Source: Deltaproteobacteria bacterium (GTDB taxonomy: Bacteria; Bdellovibrionota; Bacteriovoracia; Bacteriovoracales; Bacteriovoracaceae). From it: a stretch of DNA of 44,092 nt. The stretch is from the NCBI GenBank assembly GCA_006226755.1, contig SBGE01000255.1, forward strand, positions 1 to 44,092, in the 5' to 3' direction. This document shows positions 9,513-12,651 of this stretch, piece by piece; within the stretch, counting starts at the first letter, position 1, and each line of letters starts with the position of its first letter. A program made the translations under genes and the position numbers. Under the pieces are notes generated by a model, which did no database searches, was not told the origin of the DNA, and worked only from the letters and a program-made list of their open reading frames with translations.

Positions 9513-10952
9513 CTATGACGCAGTTTGTTTTTCACCTTTAAATACAAAGGGATAGAGAATTAGCCCTAAGGTTGTCGAAAGAATGCCGATGTAAAGCTCA
9601 TCAATATTGGCTGCAAAGCCTGAATGGGAGGCATTTCGCCAGTAAGAAGTTCCGATAATTCCAAGAACACAGGCGAAAATGAACTGATTATCTTTGATCT
9701 TTCCTGGAAACAAATAGCCATACACTACCGGTAAAAGCAGGCAGCTTGCGGAGTAACTTCCAAGAGTTTTCCAAACTTTTTTAATATTTCCTTCAAAGGC
9801 AACCGCCATGAAGATAGAGATAATTCCCACACTGACTATGCCAAGATGATGAAGCATCACTTTGCCTTTGAACTTTTTAGGAACCAAGTCATAAGAAACA
9901 GTTGTTCCGGCCAAAAAGAGATAAGAATCGAGAGTCGAGAGAATTGTAGCGAGTATTCCTGCCAGAACAAAACCTCTTACCCCTGAAGGAAGTAATTGAA
10001 CGGCATAAGTAAGATAGGCTTGTCCTGACTCAGCTTCAGGGATGACAGCACGAGCATACATCGCTCCAAATGTGGTGCAGATGTCAAAACAAAACCAGAT
10101 GAGTGTTGAAATCAGAATTCCTTTCTTGGCAACTTTTGGTGATTCAGCGGCAAAGACTCTTTGATAAAAATTTGGATCAACCAGTGTCGAAAGGGCGATA
10201 AATCCCCAGACGAGAGTTGTTGCCAATGTTTCTCCTCCAGTCAGGTGAAAATGAGTCTCAGGAAGATTTGCTTTTAAAAATCCCAATCCACCGAACGTTG
10301 TCATGGAAAGAAGTAAGATCAAAAATACACCAGAGCACATGACAAAGAACTGGACAAGGTCTGAGAAGACGACAGCTCTAAAGCCTCCCCACATTGAATA
10401 GAGTATCACTAGGAAAACGCCTGCACTCATGCAGACAACAAGACTTCCTCCAAATAAAGCCTTTAGGAAGAGTCCAAGACTGATGACATATGCAATTGGG
10501 AGAACGTTGAAAAAATTAAAATAACCACTCAAGATAGCAGATCTTGGCCCAAACATTTTGCTGATAAGATCCGGCAAGGTGACTGCTTGATAACTCTTCA
10601 CATGATCAATGATGAATAAGGCAAAGATTATATAGGCTACGTACCAAAAAGCCCCTTGGGTTACAAAATTAAATATTCCCTTCTTAAATGCAATCTCTGT
10701 GACTCCAAAAATTCCACCGTACCATGTTGCAACCAGAGTTCCGACAAACATAGGAAGAGTCAGATGTCTTCCCATTAAAAGAAGATCCAGAAAATTGGCC
10801 TGTTCGTTGTCTTCGTCAATTTCTCTATTCTTTCTAAGCTCGCCATAGATTACAGCAGCAAATGTACAGAAGAGAACAAGACCAAAGATCGTCCAATCAA
10901 GAGGTGTGATAATTTCAGAGAGAGTAACTTTAGGTGAAAAGGACTGGGACAC
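9513..10952 (-). CDS. Sodium:solute symporter family transporter, predicted thiamine or precursor importer
   Basis: 479-residue inner-membrane protein with about 12-13 hydrophobic segments and SSS-family marks: a GGF-RAVVFSDLVQFFVM stretch after transmembrane segment 5, and LAGILATILSTLDSYL, the segment that carries sodium-site residues in this family. It begins with GTG at 10952, six bases after AAGGAG (10964-10959). The substrate cannot be read from the protein, but the leader is a TPP riboswitch whose closing stem borders the ribosome site. Import of thiamine, thiamine phosphate or a pyrimidine/thiazole moiety is therefore the best inference. An SSS transporter under THI-element control, named ThiV, has been proposed in comparative genomics; whether this is its orthologue needs a tree. 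Close SSS relatives carry pantothenate, proline or sugars. Confidence 0.85.
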   Translation of the reverse strand: MSQSFSPKVTLSEIITPLDWTIFGLVLFCTFAAVIYGELRKNREIDEDNEQANFLDLLLMGRHLTLPMFVGTLVATWYGGIFGVTEIAFKKGIFNFVTQGAFWYVAYIIFALFIIDHVKSYQAVTLPDLISKMFGPRSAILSGYFNFFNVLPIAYVISLGLFLKALFGGSLVVCMSAGVFLVILYSMWGGFRAVVFSDLVQFFVMCSGVFLILLLSMTTFGGLGFLKANLPETHFHLTGGETLATTLVWGFIALSTLVDPNFYQRVFAAESPKVAKKGILISTLIWFCFDICTTFGAMYARAVIPEAESGQAYLTYAVQLLPSGVRGFVLAGILATILSTLDSYLFLAGTTVSYDLVPKKFKGKVMLHHLGIVSVGIISIFMAVAFEGNIKKVWKTLGSYSASCLLLPVVYGYLFPGKIKDNQFIFACVLGIIGTSYWRNASHSGFAANIDELYIGILSTTLGLILYPFVFKGEKQTAS

Positions 10953-10954
10953 GG

Positions 10955-11045
10955 GATTCTCCTTACGGCAGCTCTAACTGCATCAAGTTCTAGGGTCGCC
11001 CTCTTTAAAGGACCTCTCAGTTACTTTTGGTAACTCCCCTGAATC
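10955..11045 (-). promoter_or_regulatory. TPP (thiamine pyrophosphate) riboswitch
   Basis: Read on the minus strand, the 5' leader of the symporter shows the THI-element layout. GAUUC (11045-11041) can close stem P1 with GAAUC (10959-10955). GGGGAGUUAC is followed by a CAAAA loop and GUAACUGAGAGG, with the invariant CUGAGA (11020-11015). Then come GACCCUAGAACUUGAUG and a GCAG/CUGC hairpin, and finally CGUAAGGAGA (10967-10958), a form of the conserved 3' core CGUAGGGA. The Shine-Dalgarno AAGGAG (10964-10959) is itself part of that core, and the P1 strand lies between it and the GTG start. Ligand binding should therefore shut off translation. No terminator hairpin is visible, which supports translational control. 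Confidence 0.88.
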
Positions 11046-11076
11046 GTCTAATGTCCCAGTTCTACATGGAGCGGAA

Positions 11077-11472
11077 TTAGTTGTCTAGATTGCCTCCAAA
11101 CTTTTCGCTAATTTCGATTTCTATTCCATTAGGGTCTACAACATAAACGGAACGGCTTCCTGGGTATTCTACGTGCCCACCGTACTCGTAAGGAATCGCT
11201 TCGTGGTCCAATTTCTCAATAATTCCATCATAATTGAGAACATTGACTCCAAAGTGGTTAAAGAAACCTGAAGCGACCTCTCCTGCTCCAAGACTTTCGT
11301 AAAGGCATAGGTAGAACCCGTCTTTCTTTCCAATAATGGAATATTTATTACCAAGACTACTTGTTCCTGATTCTTTTTCATCGAGATCAAAGAGCTTTTT
11401 GTAGAAGTCCTTTGAAAGTTCAAGATTTTTTACATTTAGATTGAGATGATCAATCCCTCTTATATCAAACAT
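11077..11472 (-). CDS. Glyoxalase/VOC-fold metalloprotein
   Basis: 131-residue protein with one vicinal-oxygen-chelate unit pair: it opens GIDHLNLNVKNLELSKDFYKKLF and closes RSVYVVDPNGIEIEISE. Likely metal ligands are His9, His74 (FNHFGV) and the Glu of EIEISE, as in glyoxalase I, dioxygenases and thiol transferases of this fold. The substrate is unknown. The start ATG follows AAGGAGA. It lies 11 bases downstream of a 41-residue gene and divergent from oxyR, so a role in oxidant or electrophile defence is a reasonable guess from context only. Its stop is 32 bases before the TPP riboswitch, so some readthrough into the symporter is possible. Confidence 0.85.
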   Translation of the reverse strand: MFDIRGIDHLNLNVKNLELSKDFYKKLFDLDEKESGTSSLGNKYSIIGKKDGFYLCLYESLGAGEVASGFFNHFGVNVLNYDGIIEKLDHEAIPYEYGGHVEYPGSRSVYVVDPNGIEIEISEKFGGNLDN

Positions 11473-11712: not shown

Positions 11713-12651
11713 ATGACATTGACTCAACTTGAATATGCCCTTGCTGTTGATACGCATAGACATTTTGGAAAGGCCGCAAAATCTTGTCATGTGACCCAAC
11801 CAACCTTGAGTATGCAACTTTCGAAGCTAGAAGATGAAATGGGAATTATCCTTTTTGATCGTTCAAAGTCCCCGATACTTCCTACAGATGAAGGTGCTGC
11901 ATTTCTCAAACAGGCCAGAGTCGTTATCAAGGAATTTCGAAGATTAGGAGATGTCATTCAAAATGAAGGAGAAGATCTTTCAGGAAAACTTCATTTAGCC
12001 GTCATCCCAACTTTGTCTCCTTATGTGATTCCTCTTTTTGCCAAGAAATTTTCTATGACTTATCCCAAAGTAGAATTAATCATAGAAGAAAGAAAGACAG
12101 AAGAAATTATCAAATTACTAGATGAAGATAAAATTGATGTCGGTTTGTTGGTAACTCCTCTTGGGATAGATACCTTAATTGAAAGAGTTCTATTCTATGA
12201 GGAATTCTTTCTTTTCTGTAATCCTGCTTCTGCGATGTTCAACCGAAAGAAAGTCACTACAGAAGAAATTGACAACGAAAATTTGTGGATATTGGATGAA
12301 GGACATTGCTTTCGCGATCAAGTTCTTAAGATATGTAAATACAAAGGGAAGAGAAAGGGCGATATTCAATTTCAAAGTGGAAACCTGGAAACTTTGAAGA
12401 ATATGGTTAAATCATGGGGAGGAGAGACTCTTCTTCCTAAATTAGCCGTTGATCAACTCGATTCCAATGAAAAGAAATGGGTAAGATCTTTTTCTTCTCC
12501 AGTACCTACTCGTGAAGTCTCTCTTGTACACAATCGTATTTATCTCAAAGAAAAATTTATAGAAGCTCTTCAAGAGGTCATAATCAATTCCCTTCCAAAA
12601 AGTGTAACGACCCTTAAGTCTAAATCTCTAAAGGTTGTCCCTTTGAACTGA
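11713..12651 (+). CDS. oxyR: Hydrogen peroxide sensor and LysR-type regulator OxyR
   Basis: 312-residue LysR-type regulator closely following E. coli OxyR (305). The N-terminal helix-turn-helix reads LEYALAVDTHRHFGKAAKSC then HVTQPTLSMQLSKLEDEMG. The sensing domain keeps GHCFRDQVLKIC with cysteines at positions 199 and 208, the same numbers and spacing as the peroxide-reactive Cys199 and resolving Cys208 of E. coli. LETLKNMV follows, as in the family. Disulfide-based peroxide sensing is therefore expected. The start ATG is preceded by GGAG (11704-11707). It is divergent from a 41-residue gene and a VOC gene, with an OxyR-like site between. Catalase or peroxiredoxin genes, the usual targets, are not in this window. 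Confidence 0.95.
   Translation: MTLTQLEYALAVDTHRHFGKAAKSCHVTQPTLSMQLSKLEDEMGIILFDRSKSPILPTDEGAAFLKQARVVIKEFRRLGDVIQNEGEDLSGKLHLAVIPTLSPYVIPLFAKKFSMTYPKVELIIEERKTEEIIKLLDEDKIDVGLLVTPLGIDTLIERVLFYEEFFLFCNPASAMFNRKKVTTEEIDNENLWILDEGHCFRDQVLKICKYKGKRKGDIQFQSGNLETLKNMVKSWGGETLLPKLAVDQLDSNEKKWVRSFSSPVPTREVSLVHNRIYLKEKFIEALQEVIINSLPKSVTTLKSKSLKVVPLN

Follow-up and report, generated by a model that had tools for sequence, protein, structure and literature searches.

Sodium:solute symporter (SSS) genes under TPP riboswitches were reported as thiV in 2002, according to two later papers that cite the work (PMC2211319, PMC4260697), and ThiV/SSSP proteins are known from Methylobacillus, SAR11 and algae (PMC2211319, PMC4260697, PMC11452348). 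Transport of thiamine or of its pyrimidine precursor HMP has been proposed for such proteins (PMC2211319, PMC4260697); the choice between the two cargoes was left undecided in PMC4260697, and HMP is the cargo put forward for SAR11 (PMC11452348). A sequence-only reading of the locus described here noted that the SSS family is mostly known for sugars, amino acids and pantothenate. A TPP-riboswitch SSS transporter is, on this literature, a known type, and what our analysis appears to add is a narrowing of the substrate to thiamine by pathway logic. The present symporter resembles ThiV/SSSP in its PF00474 family, the TPP aptamer in its leader and its probable vitamin B1 role. The difference is that SAR11 ThiV serves an HMP auxotroph unable to use thiamine, whereas here only thiamine appears usable by the pathway. 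In the open-licence literature we found no report of TPP riboswitches in Bacteriovorax or Cloacimonadota.

Other thiamine systems are comparable in part. In sister genera without the symporter, the ECF transporter YkoEDC stands in its place behind the TPP riboswitch, but it is a primary ABC-type transporter whose fold is unrelated. The OMthi, PnuT and Tnr3 proteins of Bacteroides (PMC5613172) likewise combine a TPP-regulated TonB receptor, an inner-membrane thiamine transporter and a TPP-forming kinase; the inner-membrane step would here be taken by an SSS symporter instead of PnuT, and a search of the own genome for an ortholog of the TonB receptor gave no close one (best 24% identity).

The window, i.e. 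the whole stretch of 44,092 nucleotides that was analysed, carries the following features around the symporter gene.

9513 to 10952, minus strand: sodium:solute symporter of 479 aa with GTG start, predicted thiamine importer (PF00474)
10943 to 11050, minus strand: TPP riboswitch aptamer (THI element), canonical, with the J4-5 motif of the pyrophosphate arm (RF00059, 63.0 bits)
11041 to 11045, minus strand: 5' strand of P1, GATTC (sequence and cmscan structure line)
10955 to 10959, minus strand: 3' strand of P1, GAATC, between Shine-Dalgarno and start codon (sequence and cmscan structure line)
10959 to 10964, minus strand: Shine-Dalgarno AAGGAG within the conserved aptamer 3' core CGTAAGGAGA (sequence; same overlap in aligned relatives)
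11051 to 11060, minus strand: possible outer helix P0, 5' strand (RNAfold MFE structure)
10943 to 10952, minus strand: 3' strand of the possible P0, over the GTG and codons 2-3 (RNAfold, shuffle test)
11077 to 11472, minus strand: gene of a glyoxalase-fold protein, 26 bp upstream of the aptamer on the same strand (PF00903)

The core motifs of the THI element quoted in the sequence-only reading are present in the printed sequence, and the riboswitch that they indicated was recovered with Infernal: RF00059 matches the window at 11050-10943 (minus strand) over the full model length (1-105), scoring 63.0 bits where the gathering score is 54.3, with an E-value of 3.6e-10 for the window. This was the sole Rfam match in the window and the single RF00059 match in the own genome (3.85 Mb, rated 100% complete). 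A score above the gathering cut-off together with intact CUGAGA thiamine and pyrophosphate arms places the element in the TPP riboswitch family.

The assignment of the downstream gene to the SSS family also holds, with 97.6 bits for the PF00474 SSF profile against a cut-off of 22.8. The AlphaFold model, built with a 62-sequence family alignment (mean pLDDT 88.2, pTM 0.88), has the SSS/LeuT fold, with SGLT2 and CHT1 as the best Foldseek matches (query TM 0.74-0.80). PanF and PutP, the SSS symporters of pantothenate and proline, belong to the same superfamily but are very remote from the symporter in the tree, and the NCBIfam scores are far under the equivalog cut-offs (TIGR02119, PanF, 52.5 vs 328 bits; TIGR02121, PutP, 56.6 vs 515.5 bits). 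The invariant TWYGG motif in TM1 of the symporter family aligns with ATWVGG of a solved SLC5A7-type choline transporter, and such a cation-type site would be compatible with a cationic substrate. The likeness to CHT1/SLC5A7-type transporters is confined to this TWxGG motif and the overall fold, at about 15% identity, and nothing in our data points to choline. No relatives of the symporter were found among viral contigs, and the SSS proteins from a plasmid search, of only about 23-29% identity, were uninformative.

We consider it likely that the symporter is a Na+-coupled inner-membrane thiamine importer which feeds thiamine pyrophosphokinase (TPK) under a translational OFF leader. The sequence-only reading connected the protein with thiamine by regulation alone; the importer reading now draws also on gaps in the thiamine pathway, on the alternation with ykoEDC and on the pairing with TPP-regulated TonB receptors. 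The reading had left thiamine or HMP as the cargo, and it is on this point that the pathway is most informative. With ThiC, ThiE, ThiG, ThiL, ThiD and ThiM of E. coli joined as one query, no match was obtained in the own genome at 1e-6, while the same query strongly matched ThiC in eight other genomes from the order. Searched by family, ThiE and ThiD gave weak partial matches below cut-off in the own genome. TPK is present; it scores barely over its cut-off (30.8 vs 30.7 bits) and carries the motifs GDGDS, DKDQTD and GERLDH, which we take to be typical of TPK. As far as homology shows, then, the cell could use thiamine and neither HMP nor thiazole, and since HMP would be useless to a cell in which ThiD and ThiE are not found and TPK is present, thiamine itself is the likely cargo. 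This is our main argument, and the absences in it come from homology searches of MAGs, some of which are incomplete.

The thiamine-related part of the earlier proposal is thus supported by the pathway gaps, and its HMP part has become improbable. Import of HMP, or of AmMP, has been proposed for SAR11, where the likely HMP transporter of Pelagibacter is ThiV, an SSS protein that likewise has a TPP riboswitch (PMC11452348). Without ThiD, ThiE, ThiG and ThiL, however, conversion of HMP to TPP would be impossible in the own genome, and the same enzymes were not found in 16 Cloacimonadota-type genomes, one Bradymonadales, one deltaproteobacterial and one Oligoflexales genome that carry the symporter family. 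For the Cloacimonadota-type genomes, the absence of the six biosynthesis enzymes extends to 18/18 when two genomes from a phylum search are added to the 16 first sampled. TPK, which requires thiamine, was found in the own genome and in the majority of those genomes (15/18 of the Cloacimonadota type, as well as Bradymonadales and one deltaproteobacterial genome). Biosynthesis genes do accompany the symporter in G044, G120, G121 and Pelagicoccus, the last being a counter-example with the full pathway, without TPK and with no aptamer called at the symporter.

The linkage of aptamer and symporter was followed through a sample of 129 genomes of the order, of which 88 have a symporter ortholog and 62 a TPP aptamer. 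At 32 of the 84 symporter loci examined for aptamers, a TPP aptamer lies at -18 to +22 nt from the start of symporter homology, and the arrangement of the window, with the core doubling as Shine-Dalgarno, recurs in 31 further genomes, which argues for more than chance. At the other 52 loci, including the whole genus g36, no TPP aptamer was called at the gene. The first gene downstream of the other 37 aptamers is a YkoE-like ECF gene in 16 cases, a putative TonB-dependent receptor in 13, thiC/thiG in 6 and an unnamed gene in 2. A symporter ortholog is missing from all 16 genomes in which the riboswitch precedes YkoE-like ECF genes (14 from one genus, 2 from another), and symporter and YkoEDC therefore appear to alternate, the 16 genomes counting as two lineages and not as 16 independent events. 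Of the 13 putative TonB receptors, 11 were searched with Pfam, and Plug and/or barrel domains were found in 10 of these, L038 giving no match; the receptors in G083 and G085 are assigned by sequence only.

It is conceivable, but unlikely, that the symporter responds to TPP while carrying an unrelated solute, for instance choline, pantothenate or a carboxylate that TPP enzymes require. The SSS family has a wide range of substrates, the riboswitch is missing from many orthologs of the symporter, and among solved sequences a choline-type transporter is nearest. Such a cargo is, however, difficult to reconcile with the alternation of the symporter with ykoEDC, with the fact that in two lineages it is paired with TPP-regulated TonB receptors, and with its co-occurrence with TPK in genomes free of the biosynthesis genes.

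Several neighbouring arrangements were noted in the same sample. Throughout genus g36 (L088-L115) the symporter has been kept, but no TPP aptamer can be recognised beside it, and in some members of the genus a TPP aptamer precedes a putative TonB receptor instead. TonB-dependent receptor-like proteins lie directly 3' of TPP riboswitches in ten Bacteriovoracaceae-type loci (L035, L036, L037, L039, L040, L041, L049, L062, L130 and L144), and are candidate outer-membrane thiamine receptors. The aptamers before unnamed genes precede small proteins of 121 and about 154 aa (L128:402-764:+ and L134, respectively); a Pfam scan of the former gave no match.

The leader itself is compact. The 3' strand of the closing stem had been placed between the Shine-Dalgarno and the GTG start, and P1 GAATC at 10959-10955 does lie there, overlapping the last G of the Shine-Dalgarno, which at 10959 is part of both elements. 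The Shine-Dalgarno (10964-10959) is separated from the GTG (10952-10950) by 6 nt, and in the aligned leaders of 30 genomes the core CGTAAGGAGA is mostly followed immediately by the start codon, as in the window. With the ribosome-binding site built into the aptamer itself, no separate expression platform would be needed, and from this anatomy and the known behaviour of TPP aptamers, direct translational repression by a TPP-stabilised P1 is the most likely mode of control. Thiamine would enter through the symporter, presumably with Na+, and would be converted by TPK to TPP in a genome with no detected thiamine biosynthesis genes; when abundant, TPP would bind the aptamer and stabilise P1 and the 3' core, which would then mask the Shine-Dalgarno together with the start region and prevent translation of the symporter. 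Such a leader, in which the aptamer core is the ribosome-binding site, would serve as a simple model for the direct control of translation.

The RNAfold MFE structure of the leader (-41.7 kcal/mol, z -3.3) contains a further helix P0, a duplex of 11060-11051 with 10952-10943 that is stronger than in 997 of 1000 shuffles. The helix is also found in the sister genome and is weaker in a third member of the genus. As a general feature of the leaders P0 was ruled out (mean z -0.6 over 31 leaders). In the own genus the predicted helix could additionally cover the start codon, although this is uncertain. It is very unlikely that the leader is a decayed or constitutive aptamer without regulation, its outer helix locking the start codon unless the upstream gene is translated: the possible P0 is indeed very stable and is preceded closely by a glyoxalase-like gene of the same orientation, but the core is canonical, with a score of 63 bits, and many genomes have conserved it together with the gene. 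The transcript may also leave out part of the outer helix, because a TATAAT-like sequence stands immediately 5' of the aptamer in several relatives.

Members of the own genus and three Halobacteriovorax-like genomes have a same-strand upstream gene at similar distance, and the glyoxalase-fold gene (11077-11472, minus strand) is a possible operon partner of the symporter. An OxyR-like LysR gene (11713-12651, plus strand) is divergent from the symporter; the glyoxalase-fold gene lies between the two here and in a few relatives, and in many other relatives the LysR and symporter genes are immediate divergent neighbours.

The thiamine importer proposed here would extend well outside the order. In a scan of named genomes, orthologs of 51-70% identity were found in Cloacimonadota, in MAGs labelled Armatimonadota, and in Elusimicrobiota, Verrucomicrobiota, Lentisphaerota and Bradymonadales; no TPP aptamer was called at the symporter in the Elusimicrobiota members searched. 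The Cloacimonadota ortholog shows 65-71% identity, and in a quick tree with partly weak support, used for topology only and with E. coli PanF and PutP as outside references, the Cloacimonadota group falls among Bdellovibrionota sequences, which suggests horizontal transfer. In Cloacimonadota the gene is divergent from a TonB-dependent receptor with its own canonical TPP aptamer.

The aptamers of the Cloacimonadota symporter leaders are of a variant kind. Published structures of the TPP riboswitch have a thiamine-sensing and a pyrophosphate-sensing helix (PMC11751092). In these leaders the TPP-like aptamer lacks the J4-5 internal loop (AU/CG in the RF00059 consensus), so that the canonical CUUGAUnCAG..CUGnCGUAAGG is replaced by CUU-A-UCGG..CCGA-AAAAGG; the thiamine-sensing arm (GGGG.G, CUGAGA) is fully preserved. 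In the crystal structures of the TPP riboswitch, J4-5 is the site of the pyrophosphate contacts. The variant was read in 14 leaders by alignment.

L162, 2906 to 3007, plus strand: variant aptamer
L164, 2914 to 3016, plus strand: variant aptamer
L170, 681 to 782, plus strand: variant aptamer
11 further leaders: variant aptamers

A shortened arm of similar kind is seen in two more Cloacimonadota leaders (L245, L266), and no recognisable aptamer was found at the symporter in the L166 and L177 leaders. The aptamers of the Cloacimonadota TonB receptors inspected keep the J4-5 loop; in L162 the canonical aptamer is at 2518-2418. RNAalifold on the variant set gave no compensatory changes, because the Cloacimonadota sequences are too similar, and the shortened arm is defined by sequence conservation and covariance-model alignment. 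The variant may respond to unphosphorylated thiamine, may have retained a weak affinity for TPP, or may be a relic. It is tempting to speculate, though we regard it as doubtful, that its ligand is thiamine, the presumed cargo of the symporter, or a different vitamer without phosphate. Together with the canonical TPP aptamer of the divergently oriented TonB receptor, a few hundred bases away, it would then form a pair of thiamine-family riboswitches with distinct specificities in one genome. If the variant binds a different ligand, it would be a new riboswitch specificity.

The sequence-only reading suggested that a predator could scavenge the vitamin from its prey. This is plausible for the present organism, but the occurrence of the symporter family also in Cloacimonadota, Elusimicrobiota and Verrucomicrobiota means that it is not specific to predatory lineages. 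Overall, the family occurs where genomes appear to leave only thiamine usable, which makes the choice between thiamine and HMP directly testable, and the symporter is a candidate route of vitamin B1 acquisition for the Bacteriovorax group and for several little-studied phyla.
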